Virus record (IMG/VR): IMGVR_UViG_3300010354_000375
Coordinates: 1 to 30,446 of that record
Length of the DNA: 30,446 nucleotides
From: a virus
Reading direction: 5' to 3' (one strand)
The translations under genes and the position numbers were made by a program. A model generated the notes under the pieces. That model was not told the DNA's origin and did no database searches. It saw only the letters and a list, made by a program, of their open reading frames with translations. Shown here piece after piece: positions 379 to 29,387 of this stretch. How positions within the stretch are numbered: position 1 is the first letter of the stretch; the number at the start of each line of letters is the position of its first letter.

Positions 379-957
379 ATGAAACTAGAAACACAAAATC
401 GGCTTGTAGTGCTGATTCTTTTAACCGCGTTCCTTTCAGGAACATTTGGGATAGGAAGAATCACTCCAGCGTTTAGCCCCACACAGGCAGAGGCGTTGGA
501 AGCCCAAGTCGAGCAAGAGTCCAGCGACAAGTTACTTGCCAAGTTCGAGAACTCTCACAAGTTGAGTGACCTTGAACTAGTAGCCCTACTGAAAGCAGTT
601 GGGTTCGAAGGACAAGACCTACGAGAAGCATGGGCAGTTGCGAAGAAAGAATCATCGGGTAGACCGCTCGCACATAATGGGAACGCCTCAACAGGCGACA
701 ACTCATACGGCTTGTTTCAGATAAACATGCTTGGAGAGTTGGGAGTGGATAGACGAGCGAAGTTTGGATTGGATTCCAATGCCGAACTGCTAAACCCTGT
801 GGTGAACGCTCAAATTGCTTATCACATGAGCAATGGGGGCGAAGATTGGAGTGCATGGAAGGGAATGACTCAGCGAACCAAAGAATGGATAGCAAAGTTC
901 CCTACGGGCAAGCCAAAAGCCAAAGCAATAGCAAAAGGCAAAGGCAAGAACACATAG
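379..957 (+). CDS. Membrane-anchored lysozyme-like / lytic transglycosylase-fold protein
   Basis: This 192-residue protein has a hydrophobic N-terminal segment (about residues 8-25), a charged linker and a lysozyme-like domain at about residues 65-170. Motifs include AKKESSGRP with a likely catalytic glutamate E91, SYGLFQIN at 109-116, and a final helix DWSAWKG. Such domains cleave the glycan strands of peptidoglycan. The N-terminal helix may be an uncleaved signal-anchor or a signal peptide, which would place the enzyme outside the membrane. The tail after residue 175 is Lys/Ala/Gly-rich and low in complexity, encoded by short repeats. The start is supported by TTAGGAGAAC ahead of the ATG. 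It lies 8 bases after the integrase, away from any recognisable lysis or tail genes. It could be an endolysin, a virion-entry enzyme or an RPF-like host-wall remodelling protein expressed with the integrase. Confidence 0.72.
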   Translation: MKLETQNRLVVLILLTAFLSGTFGIGRITPAFSPTQAEALEAQVEQESSDKLLAKFENSHKLSDLELVALLKAVGFEGQDLREAWAVAKKESSGRPLAHNGNASTGDNSYGLFQINMLGELGVDRRAKFGLDSNAELLNPVVNAQIAYHMSNGGEDWSAWKGMTQRTKEWIAKFPTGKPKAKAIAKGKGKNT

Positions 958-1013
958 GTAAAGTGATAGGTAAAGGCTAAAAAGTAAAGTCATACCAAAA
1001 GCAATACCAAAAG
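954..1013. repeat. Clustered short direct repeats at the end of the integrase-side operon
   Basis: Two copies of ataggtaaag lie at 954-963 and 966-975. Two copies of ataccaaaag lie at 992-1001 and 1004-1013. Both pairs repeat with a 12-base period. The longer string aaagtcataccaaaag (986-1001) recurs exactly at 79-94 inside the integrase gene. Evenly spaced short repeats beside an integrase recall arm-type integrase binding sites or an attP region, but that is inference. The first copy overlaps the last codons of the lysozyme-like gene, and the last overlaps the terminator stem. Confidence 0.5.
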
Positions 1014-1040
1014 GCCCCGTCAGAAATGGCGGGGCTTTTT
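1011..1040. terminator. Rho-independent terminator between convergent genes
   Basis: AAGGCCCCGTCA (1011-1022) pairs with TGGCGGGGCTT (1027-1037) around a GAAA tetraloop (1023-1026), with one G-T wobble, and a run of five T follows on the plus strand. It sits just after the plus-strand lysozyme-like gene. On the minus strand the same stem is followed by TTTTGG, so it probably also ends the long minus-strand operon. Its T-run overlaps the stop codon of the membrane-protein gene. Confidence 0.9.
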
Positions 1041-1320
1041 AAATAAAATGTTTAATAAGTGCTGCAGAAGCCAGTACGACCCACACAATATTAAAGTAAA
1101 TAATAGTAGGTAAAGTTTTTATTGTGGAAGTCAATATCAAAGCAATACTAGAAGTAAGAGCAAAGATGTATAGCCACCACCACTGTTTTCCTAACAACAG
1201 TCCAGGAATAATGATGATTAATTTTGTGGAAAATGCCCAAAACTCAATAATGTTTGTTCTATTCCAATAAGATTTACTAAAGAGTTGTTTTGTTACTTGT
1301 GGTATTTCGTTTAATTTCAT
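1039..1320 (-). CDS. Small three-helix membrane protein coupled to the halogenase
   Basis: This 93-residue protein has a polar N-terminus and three predicted membrane segments at about residues 27-44, 47-65 and 71-90. A tryptophan run (WWW) sits at the start of the second. I do not recognise a family. The ATG overlaps the halogenase stop as ATGA, so the two genes are very likely translationally coupled and made in similar amounts. This is the last gene of the minus-strand operon; its stop touches the terminator. A role in anchoring the halogenase, in transport of its product or substrate, or as a holin-like protein is possible, but nothing in the sequence decides between these. Base composition is AT-rich like the halogenase, so the pair may have arrived together. 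Confidence 0.7.
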   Translation of the reverse strand: MKLNEIPQVTKQLFSKSYWNRTNIIEFWAFSTKLIIIIPGLLLGKQWWWLYIFALTSSIALILTSTIKTLPTIIYFNIVWVVLASAALIKHFI

Positions 1321-2864
1321 GACTTTAAGTCATCCAAGAAAGAGTTGTGTAAAGCACAGTCGTTTGCAACATCAGTTGAAACTGTTTTCCAATGCAAATA
1401 ATTAAGTTTATATTTGGAATCAAAATTATTGTCTTTAACAGTTTTCTTAAATATCTCTTTATTTAGTTTGTTTAAACCATAAGCAACCTGTACCCAACTA
1501 GGTAATCCAAAAGGTGCTCTGTTATGGAAGTCACTTTTTCGTGGGACAAATTTTGAAAACTTAATTACATTTGTTTTTACAGCATTTGGATGTTTTTCAA
1601 TGTCTTTAAATTTGTTCCAAAATGGTGTGTCATTTCTATCTCCAAGATAGTGAAAGTACACAAAGTTAAAAATGTCTTCAGTAAAAGCAGACAATTCTTC
1701 GTTATATTGTGAAACAGTCTCTTCGTTATAGGAGAAGAAAAGGGTTAAATCAAAGAGTGCTCTACGTAAAGCCACAACCGATGCAAATATAGAAGTTGCT
1801 TCTAGTGGTTCTATAAACCCTGAAGATAGTCCTATGGCAATGCAGTTTTTAATCCAGGGAGTTCTATAACATCCAGCATTAAACTTAAAACTTCCCTTTG
1901 TTTCTCTTGGATAAAGAGGTTTAAAACCTAAATATTCTTCAATTTCTTTTTTTATATCTTCTTCTGATACAAGAGAAGAATCAAAAACGTAACCACACCC
2001 ATACCTATGTTGCAACGGAATTTTCCACATCCATCCATATTTCATAGCAATTGACTCTGTGTACGGAGGAGTGTTGTTGGTTCTATCTAAAAAGAAAGGT
2101 AAAGCAGTATCGACTGGAAGATGTTCTTTATAGGAAATCCACTCAGAGTTAAAATGATTCCCAATTATCAATCTTTTAAAACCAGAACAATCAAAAACAA
2201 AATCTAAAGGAAGCAGTTGACCTGAATCTAATTCTACTGAAAGTATTTCTCCAGTTTCTTTTGAGTTAATTTTAGTGACTTTTCCTTCAATATGAAACAC
2301 GCCGCGTTGTTTTGCAACTTCTCTAAGATAGTTTGCTAACTTGGCGGCATCAAAATGAATTGCAAAATTTGCAAGTTTGGAATATTTAAAAATTGGGTTC
2401 AAGCCTATAGGCTGTGTGTTAGACTCCAATATGTGAGGAACCTTGTTTCTTTCACAAACTTTGCTTACAAATGTAAAGTCTTTAAATGGTAAGTCATCTG
2501 CGACAGCCATCATTGAACCAATATGATATTCGTCCACTAAATCATGGGCTCCAATGTTGTCTAATGCCTTGTGGTCTACTCCAAAAGCATGGTAGTAATA
2601 AGAGCCGTCGTTGTTCCAATTTGTAAACTTAATTCCGTTTTTTATAGTTGCTCCCGTCTCTCGAATTAAGTCAGAAACAGGAATATTTATTTCGTCTAAG
2701 AAGTGTATAAAATGAGGGGTCGTACCTTCACCAGCACCTAGTATTCCAATTTCTGGTGACTCTACAACCGTTATATTTGAATTTGGTAAGTTGACTTGCA
2801 AAAACAATGCGGTAATCCAACCAGCAGACCCTCCGCCAACTACAACAACGTCGTGTTCTTTCAT
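1317..2864 (-). CDS. Flavin-dependent halogenase (tryptophan-halogenase family)
   Basis: This 515-residue protein is close to full length for the family (PrnA has 538). Family enzymes use FADH2, oxygen and halide to make hypohalous acid, which a lysine relays to the substrate. Visible hallmarks: the FAD-binding VVGGGSAGW at 8-16, the relay lysine K75 in ATIKNGIKFTNW, the diagnostic W-x-W-x-I-P motif as WMWKIP at 278-283, and GFIEPLEATS at 349-358 with E355 at the position of the conserved active-site glutamate. No catalytic element is missing. The substrate cannot be read from sequence; a free-standing or small-molecule substrate is known for cultured relatives, and a halogenase is known from cyanophage Syn10. 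No flavin reductase is visible here, so reduced flavin would come from elsewhere in the phage or the host. It lies directly downstream of the ribonucleotide reductase and is AT-rich (sampled 60-base blocks about 28-40% GC), suggesting acquired cargo. Confidence 0.93.
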   Translation of the reverse strand: MKEHDVVVVGGGSAGWITALFLQVNLPNSNITVVESPEIGILGAGEGTTPHFIHFLDEINIPVSDLIRETGATIKNGIKFTNWNNDGSYYYHAFGVDHKALDNIGAHDLVDEYHIGSMMAVADDLPFKDFTFVSKVCERNKVPHILESNTQPIGLNPIFKYSKLANFAIHFDAAKLANYLREVAKQRGVFHIEGKVTKINSKETGEILSVELDSGQLLPLDFVFDCSGFKRLIIGNHFNSEWISYKEHLPVDTALPFFLDRTNNTPPYTESIAMKYGWMWKIPLQHRYGCGYVFDSSLVSEEDIKKEIEEYLGFKPLYPRETKGSFKFNAGCYRTPWIKNCIAIGLSSGFIEPLEATSIFASVVALRRALFDLTLFFSYNEETVSQYNEELSAFTEDIFNFVYFHYLGDRNDTPFWNKFKDIEKHPNAVKTNVIKFSKFVPRKSDFHNRAPFGLPSWVQVAYGLNKLNKEIFKKTVKDNNFDSKYKLNYLHWKTVSTDVANDCALHNSFLDDLKS

Positions 2865-2883
2865 GCCATAGTGTCCTTTTTAG

Positions 2884-4893
2884 TTAATTGGTTATTAACT
2901 TTATCTCACACGCATCGGTTGTGCAATACGCCTCACCAATAGCGTCTGCAGCCATTCCAGCGTAAACCCCACTAAAGTCAATAGGGAATATTTCCATAGT
3001 TGCATCATGATAGAACTCTTCATCTATCTGTGTGTAAGGCATCTGTGGATAGACGTGGTTGCCACTTGGTAGGAATGAGACTGTCTTCAACTGACCGTCA
3101 TACATGTGAAGAACAGTCCCAATAGCCGAAGACTCCTTCTCAGGGTCAAATGAGACAGTCACACTTACAGAGTTATCTGACCAGTATCGTTGTGCAGTGG
3201 CAGCGAGCGCCATCTTTTCATAAATACTTACATCCTTTTCGGAACGTATAGCATCTGACTTTACTGGAAAAAAGACAACAGAAGTCGTATCGGGCGATTC
3301 ATTTGCTGGTTCAACTTTGTAATTAGCCATCTTAAACAATGGAAGCATTGGGTCGTTATTTGCAAAACGAATAGCACGCATAAAGTATTTACCACCAACA
3401 GACCAGTGAACTCCTGGAGATTCACCAGCGAGTATGCTCACAGTCCCGCTAGGTTTGACCGTAGTAGTTTTGATAGATTCACGTACACCGAGCCACTCCG
3501 AATAAGACTTATCATAATCTTGGATGACCCCGTATCCTCTATCCATCCACTCACGTAAGGTTGGTAATCCCTTGCTGTCAGCAAAATTGGCAACGCCAGA
3601 CACTGAGGTACCGATTCTCCGATTACGTTGCATGATTGCATTCGTCTCTTCCCAGTGGGTCGGTAAAAGGGTGACAGTCTTTGCATAGAGATAGGCAAAC
3701 TTGAGAGTACGGAGGAAATCGTCGAGGGAATCATGTCTGTTTAAGTAAGTTTCTACTAGGGTACAACATTCATAGGATTCAAGAGATTGTTCAGCACATG
3801 GGTTATAGCCCACAGCACGCCAATCTTTGTTGTTTTCAGGGTCAGCAAGACGGCCATATTTGCGAGTTACATCCATCCAAATAACTCCTGGCTCACCATT
3901 ACGAGCAATGCCATCAATAATTGGTGATAAATCTTGTCCAACAGATACCTCAACAGAGTTGTTGGACATCCAACCATGAGCAAGACGCTCTGGATGTTTG
4001 TCATAGTTCTTTAGATTAAGGAAATCTTCATCATCAAGTCTTCCCATAAGCAACTCAGCAGAACGGCGAACGTTGCCAGAAACAACACAAACACCAATCA
4101 TGTTGCCGATGTCTGCAATGTCTCTGCGAGTTAACTTTTGACCTGAACGATTTTCAAACATCTTGCGAATCAAGTCATGTAACTTGATTAACGGGTCTGG
4201 TCCTGCTGCGGTTCCTCCAAACGTTTTAATCGGTTCGCCTGCTGGACGGATTGCTTCATAATTGAATACTGGAGTTTTCGAATCTGGTCGTAGGTAAGCA
4301 TTGATGAGGGCTGCGGTTGATTCAACCCATCCTTCTCTGGTGTCTGGGATGTCATAAGGCTGTTCTCCTTGTGGTTGATAAATGGTGAAGTCTTTATCTG
4401 CGCCTTTATCATCAAAGCCAACACCAACTCCCAACATCGAGGCTTCCATCAGGAAAGCAAATGGTTTGGCTGGGTCTGTCTTTGTCATAGAGCCAGTCGA
4501 TACAAAAGCACAGTTCTGTAGGGCTGCAGAGTTTCGTTGGACATTTACTAGTGGTGTGCCCATAACCCATAAACCACGTCCTGGTGGTGTCCATTTCAGG
4601 TTAAATAGGCGGTCAAATGCTTCCTTAGCGGAGGCTGCTGCTTTAGCATCTGACCAAGGTAGGCGTTGGCTCTTGGCATGGTCTTTCTGTAGAGAGTACA
4701 TGCCGTTGATAACTCGCTCGCAAACATCGACCCACGTTTCTTTGCGACCATCTTCCTTCAAACGCGAATAGGTACGAAGAAAGGTGATTTCACCTACCGA
4801 GTTTCCACCAGCATCTCGATAACCAAAAGGAGCCTTCTTGTCCTTGTACTGAGCAACAAAATCATCGGCCAACTTAAAAGAAAAATAGTTCAT
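2884..4893 (-). CDS. nrdJ: Class II (adenosylcobalamin-dependent) ribonucleoside-triphosphate reductase
   Basis: This monomeric RTPR-type enzyme reduces ribonucleotides to deoxyribonucleotides using coenzyme B12 and needs no oxygen. Counting from the first possible Met, C132 in QNCAFVST and C370 in YNPCAEQ (with E372) match the conserved active-site cysteines and glutamate. TVKPSGTVSILAG is the conserved substrate-binding segment. The last residues carry CTTDAC (C661, C666), the C-x4-C redox pair of the Lactobacillus-type reductase. At about 670 residues it is somewhat shorter than the 739 of that enzyme. An ATG at 4905 has no ribosome binding site. The ATG at 4893 follows AGGGG, though closely, and gives an N-terminus MNYFSF; I prefer it but am not certain. 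The gene has its own 147-base leader and feeds dNTPs to the replication genes of the same operon. Confidence 0.95.
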   Translation of the reverse strand: MNYFSFKLADDFVAQYKDKKAPFGYRDAGGNSVGEITFLRTYSRLKEDGRKETWVDVCERVINGMYSLQKDHAKSQRLPWSDAKAAASAKEAFDRLFNLKWTPPGRGLWVMGTPLVNVQRNSAALQNCAFVSTGSMTKTDPAKPFAFLMEASMLGVGVGFDDKGADKDFTIYQPQGEQPYDIPDTREGWVESTAALINAYLRPDSKTPVFNYEAIRPAGEPIKTFGGTAAGPDPLIKLHDLIRKMFENRSGQKLTRRDIADIGNMIGVCVVSGNVRRSAELLMGRLDDEDFLNLKNYDKHPERLAHGWMSNNSVEVSVGQDLSPIIDGIARNGEPGVIWMDVTRKYGRLADPENNKDWRAVGYNPCAEQSLESYECCTLVETYLNRHDSLDDFLRTLKFAYLYAKTVTLLPTHWEETNAIMQRNRRIGTSVSGVANFADSKGLPTLREWMDRGYGVIQDYDKSYSEWLGVRESIKTTTVKPSGTVSILAGESPGVHWSVGGKYFMRAIRFANNDPMLPLFKMANYKVEPANESPDTTSVVFFPVKSDAIRSEKDVSIYEKMALAATAQRYWSDNSVSVTVSFDPEKESSAIGTVLHMYDGQLKTVSFLPSGNHVYPQMPYTQIDEEFYHDATMEIFPIDFSGVYAGMAADAIGEAYCTTDACEIKLITN

Positions 4894-4905
4894 TTCCCCT
4901 ACCAT

Positions 4906-5052: not shown

Positions 5053-6555
5053 CTACTCTTCAATTGATTCAGAGATAATCTTTGTAACAGTATCTTCTTT
5101 GAGAGTCTCAGGCAATTCTTTTAGAGCCTGTGCACGGTCTCCAAATATGGCAGAGAGCACTCCACCAGCGCTTTGTCGCTGGGCTGTAATCTGGATAAAT
5201 TCCTTGTTGGATTCCATTTCTTTGACTTGATTGACTAACTTAAATAGTCGGTCTATCTCCTGTGATACGTTCGGGTCTGCGTATCCACCGTTCATTTCTT
5301 CGGCAAAACGCATGAACGCTACACGCTGGCCTTGCATCTCAATTATGGCTGTGAGCAGGGCTTTTAACTGTTCCTTGGTCTTAACTTCTACTGGAAGATT
5401 GAAGGCACAAGAATTATCAGGCTTGAAAGCAGGGCAATTAGCAGCGACAAAGCAAGTGTTGCACTGACGAATTGAACCACTCTGCGTTTGAATGACGGGT
5501 ACATCTTTGAGAATATCCTTTCCATCCTCATCTGTTTCTACTACAGTCTTCGTTTTGAAGCCAAAGACAGGCAAGTTCTGCATCTCTTCAGGGGCTCGTG
5601 GAACCACTTCACTTCGCTCCACTTTCCTCCCTTCTGCTCCACTGTTATCAGAAAGGTACCCCTCTAATTCCATCAAACCCGACATAAGGGGCGTATCGCT
5701 GTTATCAGATACTTCTTCTTTTTTACCACCCTCAATGATGTGTAAATCGGGTCTCTTCTTATCCATTGACTCTTCCAATCGTAGGTATGACCACACCGCT
5801 ACCTTAGTGGCTTCAAGGGTACTATCATTGACAAACTCTAAATAGTCCAGTCCTGCGCCCTCTACAATCGTTTTGTAGCGAGGTCTGGCTTGGTCTTTCA
5901 TCTTCTTGGGATATCTAACTAACTTTGTTCCATCCCAGATGATTGTCTCGCCTCGTCTCATGGGCGATATCCATGACAATGTGCTGGCTGTGGCAAATGG
6001 TATCTGTCTCAAGTTATCTGGCTTGGCACATCCAATGCCATGGTAGTTAGTTCCATACTGTCTCTGGTATGACCTCACGATGCCTGCCAGATTGGTTACT
6101 GATTCAATCTCTTCATTAGGTATTGCAACATTTTGGAATTGCTCAGAAAGTTCTTTGAGGTTCTGTATCCCATACTCTTGATGCCAGATAACCCATAATT
6201 TAGGGTCATTACTGAAAAAAAGACGTTGTTGGGCGACCCATTCTTTCCCCAGAATCTGCGAGTCAAACTCTAGGAAGGCTGCGGCTCTGTCAGCGTTATT
6301 AACCAGGAACTCCTGGTAGTCAGCGGCAAGGTCTAGTAACTCTGCTTTGGACAGACCAGACTTGTCCGCTTGTGATGCGCCCGATTCAATGTAAACCTTT
6401 GCATTATCTTCAAAATGTTCAGATATAAGCCATGTCTTTGTTTTTGGTAGTCCCCTTTTACGCAAACCCCAATAGTTGAGCCCCATCGACTCAACTTTCA
6501 TACCCTCTAGAAGGGTGCGATTACTACCAACCTCTGTGCCAGAGAAGATAATCAT
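5053..6555 (-). CDS. Phage protein with TIM-barrel-like N-terminal half (TGT/DpdA-like appearance) and a cysteine cluster
   Basis: This is a 500-residue protein of a type I associate with large actinophages. The first 280 residues look like a TIM-barrel resembling tRNA-guanine transglycosylase/DpdA-like phage proteins: IIFSGTEVGS, VYIESGAS where that family often has DSG-F, FLEFDSQ, YHGIGCAKPDN, then STLSWISPMRRGE and WDGTKLVRYP. A low-complexity linker follows (about 285-330) with SDNS twice. About residues 365-395 contain CNTCFVAANCP and a further Cys near CAF, which could bind zinc or a cluster, followed by a helical tail. If the resemblance holds, the substrate could be a modified base in DNA or tRNA, but the usual catalytic aspartates are not clearly in place, so function is open. 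Its start overlaps the stop of the HAD-like gene by one base. Confidence 0.45.
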   Translation of the reverse strand: MIIFSGTEVGSNRTLLEGMKVESMGLNYWGLRKRGLPKTKTWLISEHFEDNAKVYIESGASQADKSGLSKAELLDLAADYQEFLVNNADRAAAFLEFDSQILGKEWVAQQRLFFSNDPKLWVIWHQEYGIQNLKELSEQFQNVAIPNEEIESVTNLAGIVRSYQRQYGTNYHGIGCAKPDNLRQIPFATASTLSWISPMRRGETIIWDGTKLVRYPKKMKDQARPRYKTIVEGAGLDYLEFVNDSTLEATKVAVWSYLRLEESMDKKRPDLHIIEGGKKEEVSDNSDTPLMSGLMELEGYLSDNSGAEGRKVERSEVVPRAPEEMQNLPVFGFKTKTVVETDEDGKDILKDVPVIQTQSGSIRQCNTCFVAANCPAFKPDNSCAFNLPVEVKTKEQLKALLTAIIEMQGQRVAFMRFAEEMNGGYADPNVSQEIDRLFKLVNQVKEMESNKEFIQITAQRQSAGGVLSAIFGDRAQALKELPETLKEDTVTKIISESIEE

Positions 6556-15234: not shown

Positions 15235-16119
15235 TTATGGAATTAGTACGTATCTTCCACTCAGCCACTGGTTAGATGCTGTAGTAGAACCTGACAAGAA
15301 ATAAGAATATGTCTCTGTAATTGTTGGACGCAAATTCTTCATCCACATTCCTGCAAATGCAGCAGTTGCATTAGATGTTCCAACAGAGAACTGTCGTGTC
15401 CCGTTCATTGCAGTGTGAAAGAAACGACCATTGGTGTAGAAGTCTGTTGAAGCACTCCCATTGCTGTACAGAGCAACGGTTGGAGTAGCCAACACATCCC
15501 AGCCTTTGCCAGTGTTTTTCACTTCAGGATTATCGGTTGCTCCCACAGAAATAGTCTCGTTAATACAGGCAGGGACCGCCATATTAGTTCTATTACTTTC
15601 ATTACCTGTTGATGCAATAACAGCCACGTTTGCTGTAGTCAGTGTTTTGATGTTATTAACTAGGTCAGGAGTTGCTCTACAGGCGCCGTTTACTTTACCT
15701 TGCGAGATGCTGACGGCCTTTATATTAAACTTAGAGTTATTGTTTACAACCCATTTTAATGCGGTTGTTATATCGTCGATTGTGTAAGCGCCTGCTCTAC
15801 CGTTTGTATTAAGACCGAGAATTCGAATCAATACAACTTTGGCATCGGGGTTCACTGATGTGAGAATTGAAAGCATCGTCGTACCGTGTGCAAATGCTGG
15901 AAGAGAGTTTGCAGCAACCGTGGCTGCCCCTGTGCCTTCTTGCAAGCGTGTGCCGTTTGGACATAACGCTACGGATACGATGCAAACCTCATGCACCACA
16001 TTGTTTGTAAATGACGACGTATTAAACCCAACATCAATAATTGCAACAGTCGGTGTATTTGCTTGTGCTGGTGCAGATAAACCTGCCAGCAATAAAACTA
16101 TAACCAATAACTTTTTCAT
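15235..16119 (-). CDS. Secreted subtilisin-like serine protease (S8 family)
   Basis: This 294-residue protein has a classical signal peptide (MKKLLVIVLLLAGLSAPAQA, likely cut after A20). The catalytic triad is complete: D29 in VAIIDVGFN, H78 in FAHGTT and S249 in VGTSNATAAFAG, with the oxyanion asparagine N173 in ASTGNES. Four cysteines (46, 53, 147, 185) could form disulfides after export. No propeptide is evident between signal and domain, since the Asp motif begins only eight residues after the cut site. The family cleaves peptide bonds and here would act outside the membrane or in the medium. It is coupled by an ATGA overlap to the coiled-coil gene, in the middle of replication genes, an odd place for a secreted enzyme. 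Confidence 0.92.
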   Translation of the reverse strand: MKKLLVIVLLLAGLSAPAQANTPTVAIIDVGFNTSSFTNNVVHEVCIVSVALCPNGTRLQEGTGAATVAANSLPAFAHGTTMLSILTSVNPDAKVVLIRILGLNTNGRAGAYTIDDITTALKWVVNNNSKFNIKAVSISQGKVNGACRATPDLVNNIKTLTTANVAVIASTGNESNRTNMAVPACINETISVGATDNPEVKNTGKGWDVLATPTVALYSNGSASTDFYTNGRFFHTAMNGTRQFSVGTSNATAAFAGMWMKNLRPTITETYSYFLSGSTTASNQWLSGRYVLIP

Positions 16120-16562: not shown

Positions 16563-17395
16563 TGCTTACATCCATCCTCTGAAACATTGCACTCAGGCAT
16601 CGTATCAGCCTCTACGGCATTCACTACTTTCCTTGCGGCATTAAAAACTCTTTCTACAATTTCAAAGTTTGCTTTAACCGTAAACTCTTTGTAATCCTGG
16701 TCTGCCTTAAGTTCGTAAATAAAAACTATTTCATTAGGGGCTTCATCTCCATACATACGTTTTGCCAGTTCTAAGTACATTTGACCCTGCAATAAATGGC
16801 TGTGAAATGGTCTACGGATGTTTTTCCACGCCTTGGTAAGGTCATGGTTTGCATCCATAAGTAGTTCAGGAGCCTCATATCTGAGAGTTCCAGCACCTAT
16901 AGATTTTATTTCTATAAGGCAGTCTTCTCCAAGGTCTTTTACCCAACCGTCCGTATGACCCGCGATACGCAAAGATTCGTCTCGTAGAGCAACTTCTCCG
17001 TACTCAAGGACATCGCAACCGCAAGTTGCGCATTCTTGTGGAGACAACCCAAAAGTAACGTTCTTGCAGTAAATGCAGTTGAATTTTCCGTATAGGTTGC
17101 CCATCTCGTAAAACCGATTCTGCCATTTTTCATGGATGGCATGTCCTTCATCAAAGATGTTCTGTAGTCGTAAAGAAGGTTTTTCTTGTTTCTTTTTACC
17201 GCCCTTTAAAAGGTAAAAGGCATACTTGTGACACCAATCAGACTTAATAATCTCAGATGGGTGTAGAACATCTGTTCTACGGTCAGACTCTGGTCTTCGC
17301 ATTAGATGACGTTCAATATCACCAAGAAGCCGTGTCTCAGTTTTTTTGGCATCAAGAAATCTCTTCAGTTCCCACGAACTTTGAACAGGCATCAC
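16544..17395 (-). CDS. Cas4/RecB-type PD-(D/E)XK exonuclease
   Basis: This 283-residue protein carries PD-(D/E)XK core elements: an early acidic helix region with FDEGHAIHEKW, then GHTDGWV with the metal-binding Asp, and CLIEIKS with the E-x-K, followed by HLLQGQMYLEL (motif with Q). An early Cys in SDWCHK and a final cluster with C-x6-C-x2-C are placed as in Cas4, where four cysteines hold an iron-sulfur cluster. An extra zinc-ribbon-like insertion, CIYC ... CATCGC at about 107-130, is present. Phage Cas4 relatives act as DNA exonucleases in recombination. No CRISPR array or other cas gene is in the window, so the name denotes family only. Confidence 0.85.
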   Translation of the reverse strand: MMPVQSSWELKRFLDAKKTETRLLGDIERHLMRRPESDRRTDVLHPSEIIKSDWCHKYAFYLLKGGKKKQEKPSLRLQNIFDEGHAIHEKWQNRFYEMGNLYGKFNCIYCKNVTFGLSPQECATCGCDVLEYGEVALRDESLRIAGHTDGWVKDLGEDCLIEIKSIGAGTLRYEAPELLMDANHDLTKAWKNIRRPFHSHLLQGQMYLELAKRMYGDEAPNEIVFIYELKADQDYKEFTVKANFEIVERVFNAARKVVNAVEADTMPECNVSEDGCKQCDLIP

Positions 17396-17709
17396 ATTTC
17401 CTTACTGAATATAAATTCTTTGAGGGTCATTTTCTTTTTGTATTTCTTTTGCCACTTTCTTATGAGAGCGTTCCTCTCACGGTGAGACAAACCTCCCCAT
17501 ATTCCGTGCGGTTCATCTCGTGAGACCGCATCCCATAAACACTCTGTTTTAACTGGACAGTGGTTCTTTCCAGTCTCACCAAAACAGAATGCTTTTGCTT
17601 GTTCAGCAATAACTTTGTATTGGTTCTTATCTCTTGGCGGATAAAAAAGGTCGGTGTCTGCTCCCGAACATCGGGCTTGATACCGCCAAGCGTACTCTGG
17701 TTCATCCAT
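17392..17709 (-). CDS. WhiB-family iron-sulfur regulator with an unusual cysteine spacing
   Basis: This 105-residue protein is of the WhiB family, which is confined to actinobacteria and their phages. It binds a 4Fe-4S cluster and acts with the primary sigma factor. Cysteines are C14 (RCSGADTDLFYPP), C42, C51 and C57 (HCPVKTEC), followed by the turn GIWGG at 69-73 and a basic C-terminal helix (RKWQKKYKKK). The normal C-x2-C-x5-C arrangement is here C-x8-C-x5-C, with six extra residues around FGETGKNH, in frame. Whether the cluster still forms is an open question. The gene overlaps the Cas4-like gene by four bases, so it is made with the recombination proteins. Confidence 0.93.
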   Translation of the reverse strand: MDEPEYAWRYQARCSGADTDLFYPPRDKNQYKVIAEQAKAFCFGETGKNHCPVKTECLWDAVSRDEPHGIWGGLSHRERNALIRKWQKKYKKKMTLKEFIFSKEM

Positions 17710-27857: not shown

Positions 27858-28576
27858 ACGGCCCCCCTCAAATCAGAACCAACAATCGGAACTCGTACAA
27901 ACGCTTCCTGAGCAAAACTTGCCATTGCTTCGCCGTACTTGTCTTGCCAGTTCTCTAGCATGACGTTGGTCGTTACTATTGTTGGTAAAGCCTTGTCATA
28001 CCTAGAACGAAGTATCTCATCAAACGATGTGTCGTCGTACTTTGAACCGTACTCTTTTCCAAGGTCATCAATGACCAGTAATCTGACGTTCAAGAAATCA
28101 ACTTTAGAGCGACCATGAAGCCCATCGATTTCGTACACCATCTGCTTTTTGTCCTCTGGGTCAGCGTCGAAAGTAGATTTCTTCTTCGACAAAAACTCAG
28201 GATAAGTCATGTAGTAGATAGGGCGAGCATTGAGGCCATAATCGCTCGCATTCATACCCAGAATCTTACGCGCCTCTTCGTCATCCTCTGGGAGACGTCG
28301 GACCACCTCCATAGCCGCAACAACTGCGTGAGTTGTTTTGCCGATTCCAGGCCCTCCATCAAATAGCATACCGACGCCATTAGTTCCAATGTTGCCAACC
28401 TGCTTTATAACAAGACCGTTAACAACATCCTCAATCCACTGCTCATATTGGGGATGAATCTCTCCTGAGCGTTCTACTAGGTCTAATATTTCAAGACCAA
28501 GAAACCTACGTGGAATGTTAGATGTTCGTAAAAGCCAATGCTTTTTTATGGATGTCAACTCATTTACATCATACAT
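27854..28576 (-). CDS. DnaC/IstB-like AAA+ helicase loader
   Basis: This is a 240-residue protein. Walker A is GGPGIGKTT, Walker B is LLVIDDLGKEYGS and the sensor 1 strand is PTIVTTN, followed by an arginine finger region near the C-terminus (FVRVPIVG). DnaC-type loaders bring DnaB hexamers onto DNA. The frame opens at 28603, but the ATG at 28574-28576 is preferred: GAGGAAG precedes it and the gene then overlaps the sulfotransferase stop by only 8 bases. The helicase gene is two genes downstream. Confidence 0.85.
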   Translation of the reverse strand: MYDVNELTSIKKHWLLRTSNIPRRFLGLEILDLVERSGEIHPQYEQWIEDVVNGLVIKQVGNIGTNGVGMLFDGGPGIGKTTHAVVAAMEVVRRLPEDDEEARKILGMNASDYGLNARPIYYMTYPEFLSKKKSTFDADPEDKKQMVYEIDGLHGRSKVDFLNVRLLVIDDLGKEYGSKYDDTSFDEILRSRYDKALPTIVTTNVMLENWQDKYGEAMASFAQEAFVRVPIVGSDLRGAV

Positions 28577-29387
28577 AGCGCAACTCTTCCTCCCAAAAGT
28601 CAAAGCCAGAATACCGTTTTTGTATAGAAACAGGAAGAACTTCTCTGTAGTTCACTGTCGAATACTGCAGGTTAGGACGCACATGATGCAAATTAGGGTG
28701 GCTACCAACAAGTTCATCTCGGTCTTCTTCTAATTTCATAATACTGTCTGTGTTGTGTGTGTACACGGGTTCCTTAATAAACTCATAAATTCTTTCAAGG
28801 GTCTCTGAAGGCTTAGTAACTAAATCCCTGTAATTTATAAATAGAACAAAATCCCTATATGCAGGCTCTAATGCACGATTTACTTGAAAGAAAAATGAGG
28901 GGAGTACTACCTGCATTAAGTAGTCGCAAACTGCTTCATCTACTGACTCATAAGTTAACTGAAAAAAGTTTTCCTGAGTCATTAAAGGAACAAAGACAGG
29001 GTGTTCGTGCTCCAAAGTAAGGTACGACGCTAAAATCTCTAGTGTAGGACGCACTGTGTAAACTATCTTTGGACTTGGCTCAATATGCTCAGTTAAGGCC
29101 TCTATCATTGTTGGAGCAAACAGATGTTTTGAACGGTCAAAAATAACAGGCTTTTTTACGTCTTGATAGTAAGAACTGTAAAGACCTTTTAATAACGCTG
29201 AATACCTATTTTTATCGGGATTTCTAGAGAAATCTTGGGAGTTCAACATTGTAGTAGTAACTGAATGCACTACATGAGGCAAAGGACTTAAAGGACTGCT
29301 GTATATCCGTGGATTTTGGTTTAATAAAGCCGAAAGGACTGTATTACCACTTCTTGGAAGTCCTGTTAAGTAGTGAATGCGGTTCAA
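28569..29387 (-). CDS. Sulfotransferase-family protein
   Basis: This 272-residue protein has a 5'-phosphosulfate loop TGLPRSGNTVLSALL near the N-terminus and a second PAPS-binding region IVYTVRPTLEILASYL, where the Arg and Ser contact the 3'-phosphate. A later FINYRDLVTKPSETLERIYEFI is the usual C-terminal segment of the family. Such enzymes move a sulfate group from PAPS to hydroxyls or amines of carbohydrates, proteins or small molecules. No signal peptide is present, so action in the cytoplasm is expected. The gene is coupled by ATGA to the initiator-like gene and lies inside the replication block. The acceptor is unknown; phage sugar or cell-surface precursor sulfation is possible. Confidence 0.85.
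   Translation of the reverse strand: MNRIHYLTGLPRSGNTVLSALLNQNPRIYSSPLSPLPHVVHSVTTTMLNSQDFSRNPDKNRYSALLKGLYSSYYQDVKKPVIFDRSKHLFAPTMIEALTEHIEPSPKIVYTVRPTLEILASYLTLEHEHPVFVPLMTQENFFQLTYESVDEAVCDYLMQVVLPSFFFQVNRALEPAYRDFVLFINYRDLVTKPSETLERIYEFIKEPVYTHNTDSIMKLEEDRDELVGSHPNLHHVRPNLQYSTVNYREVLPVSIQKRYSGFDFWEEELRYV

Follow-up and report, generated by a model that had tools for sequence, protein, structure and literature searches.

A phage-borne flavin-dependent halogenase, its recurrent three-helix membrane partner, and exchange of the enzyme at a defined insertion site

The locus and its empty counterpart

The stretch of DNA analysed here (the window), a linear fragment of 30,446 bp, takes in the entire IMG/VR record. 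Around its halogenase gene lie the following features:

379..957, plus strand: lysozyme-like gene, convergent, the right border of the insertion site (annotation and empty-site comparison)
1003..1042, minus strand: hairpin resembling a terminator (AAAAAGCCCCGCC...GACGGGGCCTTTT), 3' end of the cassette (folding, -15.1 kcal/mol, z -2.9)
1014..2892, minus strand: the whole two-gene cassette, 1,879 bp (comparison with the empty sites of L167 and L168)
1039..1320, minus strand: conserved 93-aa three-helix membrane protein, the halogenase partner (ORF, recurrence, and model)
1317..2864, minus strand: flavin-dependent halogenase (PF04820), 515 aa (ORF, profiles, motifs, and fold)
2884..4905, minus strand: class II ribonucleotide reductase (RNR), upstream of the cassette, the left border of the insertion site (TIGR02505, 6e-107)

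The limits of the cassette are given by the nearest relatives of the window, loci L167 and L168, which encode an RNR protein 100% identical to that of the window and have no cassette. Their nucleotide sequences follow the window at 97-98% identity up to 2893 and at 99.4% again from 1013; between these points 44 bp, with a terminator hairpin of their own in the corresponding position, replace the cassette. The inserted piece is thus exactly 1014-2892, the two genes and the 3' hairpin only. (A simple terminator scan missed this hairpin, but folding supports it.) The cassette is also well under the GC content of the genome (0.35 and 0.31, against 0.43). As judged from these sequences, it has been inserted between the RNR gene and the RNR terminator, in one lineage of approximately 90-100 kb actinophages. 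Because the nearest relatives keep the RNR without the cassette, this adjacency carries no hint about the substrate: the RNR is a neighbor at an insertion hotspot, and there is no sign of a nucleotide-related substrate.

An earlier reading made from the letters alone (the sequence-only reading) had placed the halogenase at the end of a replication operon, next to RNR. It does directly follow the class II RNR gene, but is the last-but-one gene of the minus-strand run. That reading was right about the halogenase itself, but did not notice that a conserved partner follows it, where the cassette begins and ends, or that halogenases are exchanged here. The substrates it suggested (a host metabolite, a signal molecule, or a nucleotide-related compound) are guesses.

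The phage and its probable host

Replication genes of the window encode PolA, DnaB, a primase, a helicase, RuvC-like and RecA/UvsX-like proteins, and a helicase loader; a truncated integrase is encoded as well as the class II RNR. Neither a terminase nor any structural gene was seen in the 30,446 bp, but a terminase is encoded by relatives of 86-100 kb that have the RNR, a phrog_887 gene, and numerous small genes in common with the window. With these genes, the earlier description of the contig as phage DNA stands. The actinobacterial host proposed with it is likely, an assignment that rests on WhiB, which occurs only in actinobacteria and in phages that infect them (PMC10611076). A WhiB-like protein was recognized by eye at 17392-17709, and of the 14 partner-bearing records that reach 60 kb or more, 12 have WhiB (PF02467); among 14 control genomes, only the actinobacterium has it. 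The virus probably infects freshwater actinobacteria.

Three other minus-strand genes of the window may be mentioned. The phrog_887 gene (5053-6555), which adjoins the RNR gene in relatives too, encodes a queuine tRNA-ribosyltransferase-like protein, possibly of the DpdA type (7-deazaguanine DNA modification). A sulfotransferase-like gene (PF00685, phrog_27463) is found within the replication operon, at 28569-29387. At 15235-16119 there is, by eye, a secreted subtilase-like protein, with relatives in 39 halogenase loci, though not as a direct neighbor.

The halogenase

A 515-aa open reading frame on the minus strand (a strand left unstated before) fills 1317-2864 exactly, while the plus strand has stops throughout this interval. 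Its product matches PF04820 (Trp_halogenase; E=1.7e-107, residues 5-468) and phrog_2928 ("tryptophan halogenase," 1e-111), and in a phmmer search of the PDB it matched 30 halogenase sequences, the top one being the Pseudoalteromonas L11 halogenase 9luq (1.3e-69). The family hallmarks are where they had been reported: the FAD-binding GxGxxG (VGGGSAGW, 9-16), K75, WxWxIP (WMWKIP, 278-283), and E355, which is part of EPLEATS. K75, E355, and W278/W280/I282/P283 are invariant across 20 relatives. The first two align with the catalytic Lys and Glu (K79 and E346 in PrnA), and these positions and WMWKIP also align with RebH and PyrH. The predicted structure (pLDDT 88.9) matches Thal, RebH, and PrnA in Foldseek (E~1e-40, TM 0.85).

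By sequence and predicted structure, then, the enzyme is a complete flavin-dependent halogenase with the RebH/Thal/PrnA fold, as had been claimed, and very probably an active one. It has the fold and catalytic residues of RebH, PrnA, Thal, PyrH, and 9luq, but is only about 25-30% identical to them, and those of known function sit in biosynthetic clusters. H92 and F94 seem to match H101 and F103 of PrnA, but variability in the C-terminal substrate lid is too great for a substrate to be called. The gene has a GC content of 0.348 (GC3 0.27), against about 0.43 in its surroundings.

Flavin-dependent halogenases use reductase-supplied FADH2, with O2 and halide, to make HOX, which a Lys and a Glu steer to an electron-rich carbon. 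The sequence-only reading had seen no flavin reductase, and none (PF01613) was found in the window or in 19 related records of up to 154 kb, so that FADH2 would have to be supplied by the host.

Halogenases in other viruses

The enzyme had been thought to be rare for a virus, with that of cyanophage Syn10 as the known precedent. Neither idea survives: a single IMG/VR scan gave 169 halogenase loci, 82 GenBank phage records match halogenase, 20 of 153 cyanophages carry one (PMC10452541), and a halogenase-bearing actinophage from a lake metagenome, DSL-LC01, was published in 2023 (PMC10611076). These numbers rule out the window enzyme as a first or rare viral halogenase; on its own, it is a further member of an already known family.

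In the tree it groups with its counterparts in L002 and L003 (support 99); their clade is a mixed one that also contains gammaproteobacterial relatives, and VirX1, the Syn10 enzyme (PDB 6qgm), lies outside it. Its closest cellular relatives found, at 39-42% identity and with intact motifs, are halogenases linked to TonB receptors in Gammaproteobacteria (MAG loci L246-L251). Unlike the window enzyme, these have a high-GC chromosomal context, TonB-receptor-like neighbors (by eye), and no membrane partner. VirX1 is likewise a phage-encoded flavin-dependent halogenase with all catalytic motifs, but belongs to a separate clade: the window enzyme (P0001) matches it at 1e-50, compared with 5e-92 for the L083-type enzymes discussed below. 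Since the tree puts the window enzyme in a different starred clade, while the L083 type groups with VirX1, its assignment to a VirX1 subfamily was rejected. Syn10 also differs from the window phage in having a marine cyanobacterial host and no copy of the membrane partner.

DSL-LC01 (an Actinomycetia phage, OQ999401) is a predicted freshwater actinophage with both a halogenase and WhiB (PMC10611076). Its halogenase is 32% identical to that of the window, has degenerate motifs (WVSKIP and EPLD), and lies beside collagen-like tail genes and a glycosyltransferase, with no membrane partner. The replacement of the catalytic Glu by Asp in this homologue (L162), and by Gln (EPLQ) in that of S-PM2 (L163), may mean that these are inactive or changed. 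Two contigs inside a bacterial MAG ("Verrucomicrobia TMED56"; L253 and L257) look by eye like phage, with several 2OG-oxygenase-like and Gly-rich tail-like genes as well as halogenases.

Such neighborhoods bring up one possible role, the modification of Trp or Tyr side chains of tail-fiber or collagen-like virion proteins, together with neighboring 2OG-Fe(II) oxygenases and glycosyltransferases. The halogenases of L013, L028, L102, L116, DSL-LC01, L253, and L257 are beside genes of these kinds. For the window this is rather unlikely: in its lineage the cassette adjoins RNR, and the window shows no structural gene; the substrates of functionally characterized flavin halogenases are small molecules or carrier-bound ones; and the membrane partner would be needless.

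A conserved membrane partner

Directly downstream of the halogenase gene, and overlapping its stop codon by 4 bases (ATGA), is the start of the 93-aa partner. This protein is well conserved: among 43 sequences, mean column identity is 71% and 29 of the 93 columns are invariant, including the polar or charged residues N23, E26, K33, Q46, S58, S65, T66, K68, T69, T72, and N77. It diverges less than the enzyme beside it (on average 0.30, vs. 0.56 for the halogenase), being the more conserved of the two in 94% of comparisons, with correlated divergence (Mantel r=0.73).

No match to a known family was found in Pfam, PHROGs, NCBIfam, or the PDB. Used as the sole query, the partner gave at least 563 viral contig stretches, and match scores in the examined loci are bimodal (E <1e-8 or >0.5). 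In contrast, a pattern scan and tblastn found none among 84,980 prokaryote species genomes, although a very divergent relative could escape these, and there is none among 50,697 GenBank phages, although 82 of these have halogenases. As candidate carriers, DSL-LC01 and cultured cyano- and pelagiphages gave no match. Within the databases searched, the partner occurs only in uncultured phages.

Its association with halogenases was approached from both sides. Among 80 IMG/VR loci retrieved by halogenase, the partner is directly downstream in 76; of the other four, one is truncated where its contig stops and three are without it. The same-clade halogenases of L027, L028, and L048, and also L188/L189, have no partner, which is therefore not obligatory. 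Conversely, searching by the partner and nothing else gave 79 new loci, of which 63 have a halogenase nearby. In 49 records selected by the partner, each 20 kb or longer, a PF04820 halogenase is present somewhere in 43; the six in which none was detected are in the IMG/VR class linear and are possibly fragments.

In some records the two genes are unlinked, 30-90 kb apart: G014 (41 kb vs. ~129 kb), G028 (9 kb vs. ~41 kb), and G083 (59 kb vs. 21 kb), which makes the association more than mere adjacency. Only two of 40 RNR-relatives of the window have a halogenase and only one, G083, has the partner; in G083 both are present, 38 kb apart. Taken together, 44 of 50 partner-bearing records have a halogenase, vs. 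1 of 39 partner-free RNR relatives (Fisher p=1e-17, which overstates independence, these being related phages). The halogenase and partner are, with good probability, a functional pair.

It might instead be argued that the partner is an independent host-takeover gene (for superinfection exclusion, or holin-like) that simply travels with halogenases in accessory-gene islands, given that it is found in some loci without a halogenase and that small three-helix membrane proteins are common as phage accessory genes. This is unlikely in view of the presence of a halogenase in 43 of the 49 partner-bearing records, including the pairs 30-90 kb apart, of a minimal insertion consisting of exactly the halogenase and the partner, and of a 71% mean column identity that is high for a holin-like protein.

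Other neighborhoods of these genes vary. In L121 (4685-6276) and L131 (3129-4699) no halogenase is nearby, and the gene directly before the partner is CoA-transferase (family III)-like; in L129 the partner is paired with rml genes. L110, L120, and L124 have tandem halogenases of different subfamilies around a phrog_7084 gene, and then the partner. The function-unassigned phrog_7084 and phrog_17480 (clusters 13 and 34; for example, L139:3949-4692 and L155:3019-3768) recur beside halogenases, the partner, and 2OG-Fe(II) oxygenases. Many loci of T4-like phages (L005-type) have, by eye, sulfotransferase-like, CysC-like kinase, and DUF2061-like small membrane protein genes upstream of the halogenase.

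Exchange of the halogenase

The insertion site of the window is occupied in related phages by a different enzyme. In L082-L091 and L097 (leaving aside L088 and L090, which are other phages), a VirX1-type halogenase is found there; compared with the window, the RNR of these phages is 76-84% identical and the partner 75-82%, but the halogenase only about 30%. The match of the L083 halogenase to VirX1 (6qgm) has E=5e-92.

Two members of this set, L082 and L083, are near-identical phages. They have RNR proteins 98.8% identical (0.87 at four-fold sites), partners 93.5% identical with 29 of 29 four-fold sites the same, and halogenases just 59.8% identical, with 0.47 at four-fold sites. Such a difference means that the enzyme gene was replaced, rather than evolving fast in place. 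Between the window and L002, the RNR is 95% and the halogenase 59% identical.

A third halogenase group, with a THKYG motif, is separated from the partner by a few genes (2OG-Fe(II) oxygenases and phrog_7084). The tree places these groups in separate starred clades. On sequence evidence, then, halogenases of three or more divergent subfamilies are found with this one partner in phages that are unrelated, and the enzyme is replaced while the partner stays.

This bears on the simplest explanation, an ordinary accessory metabolic gene: an isolated, hitch-hiking halogenase, possibly inactive or hydroxylase-like, with no special role. Loss of catalytic residues in some phage relatives (EPLQ in S-PM2, EPLD in DSL-LC01) would fit it. 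It is nevertheless quite improbable here, as almost every partner-linked halogenase keeps K75, E355, and WxWxIP despite more than 50% divergence, and the repeated exchange for different intact halogenases implies selection for activity.

Possible roles for the partner

The enzymes vary but the partner stays constant, so its role would lie in something common to them all: supplying substrate or halide, exporting product, or determining location.

Transport is one possibility. The partner model (pLDDT 80.7) has helices at 21-43, 48-64, and 71-92, and an N-terminal helix (3-13) outside these membrane helices. In Foldseek, 21 of its 38 PDB matches are to SemiSWEET or mitochondrial pyruvate carrier (MPC) proteins, at E values of 2-9, none significant. 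In a viral structure library the top match is annotated as SemiSWEET, and the next ones include several PQ-loop proteins and PnuC, with E above 1. SemiSWEET, MPC, PQ-loop, and PnuC are small three-helix transporter families. The SemiSWEET, PQ-loop, and MPC proteins, three-helix bundles of 80-95 aa as the partner is predicted to be, are its best structural matches, but the E-values are not significant and there is no profile match: searches of Pfam and PDB profiles gave no SWEET, PQ-loop, or MPC support. Assignment to MPC by PF03650 was rejected, as the two matches, both below cut-off, are elsewhere in other records and none is at the partner gene. By eye, K33 and N77 could be counterparts of the MPC2 substrate residues. 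The resemblance of the model to these half-transporters can be treated as a lead.

Alternatively, the partner might be an anchor or adaptor, holding the soluble halogenase at the host membrane near a membrane-bound substrate or reductase, with no transport involved. The overlapping adjacent genes and the correlated divergence noted above would suit such a role, as would the position of helix 3-13. This seems doubtful, however: a single conserved partner serves halogenases only about 30% identical to each other, and its most strongly conserved parts are the membrane helices and the links between them, rather than an exposed tail. The invariant polar and charged residues also argue for a ligand-handling role over mere anchoring. 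A carrier role, as opposed to anchoring, is given a little under an even chance. The more specific proposal, a phage-only family of half-transporters (SemiSWEET/PQ-loop type) dedicated to halogenation, with different halogenases plugged in, is possible but not probable.

A putative halogenation cassette

A mobile two-gene halogenation cassette, with a swappable halogenase and a constant small carrier, is the best explanation offered here, and has perhaps an even chance of being right. In it, the halogenase would take FADH2 from a host reductase; this would react with O2 and halide to give HOX, which Lys75 and E355 would deliver to an electron-rich aromatic substrate, as in other members of the enzyme family. 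Less certainly, the partner may work as a dimeric, SemiSWEET/PQ-loop-like mini-carrier meeting a need common to all these halogenases (import of substrate or halide, or export of the halogenated product), and halogenase exchange may alter the product or the halogenated position. A module that combines a halogenase with a phage-only membrane protein, and whose enzyme is exchanged at a defined site, appears, from sequence comparison, to be new; its function is putative.

What phages use halogenases for has been an open question ever since the first cyanophage genomes. The partner defines a protein family absent from the searched family libraries and from GenBank phages, yet present in at least 563 viral stretches; with it, the minimal cassette, the empty site, and the enzyme exchange, the question becomes a short list of tests. 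If the partner is a half-transporter dedicated to halogenation, freshwater actinobacteria under infection would import a precursor (or halide) needed by all these enzymes, give off small halogenated molecules specified by the phage, or both.
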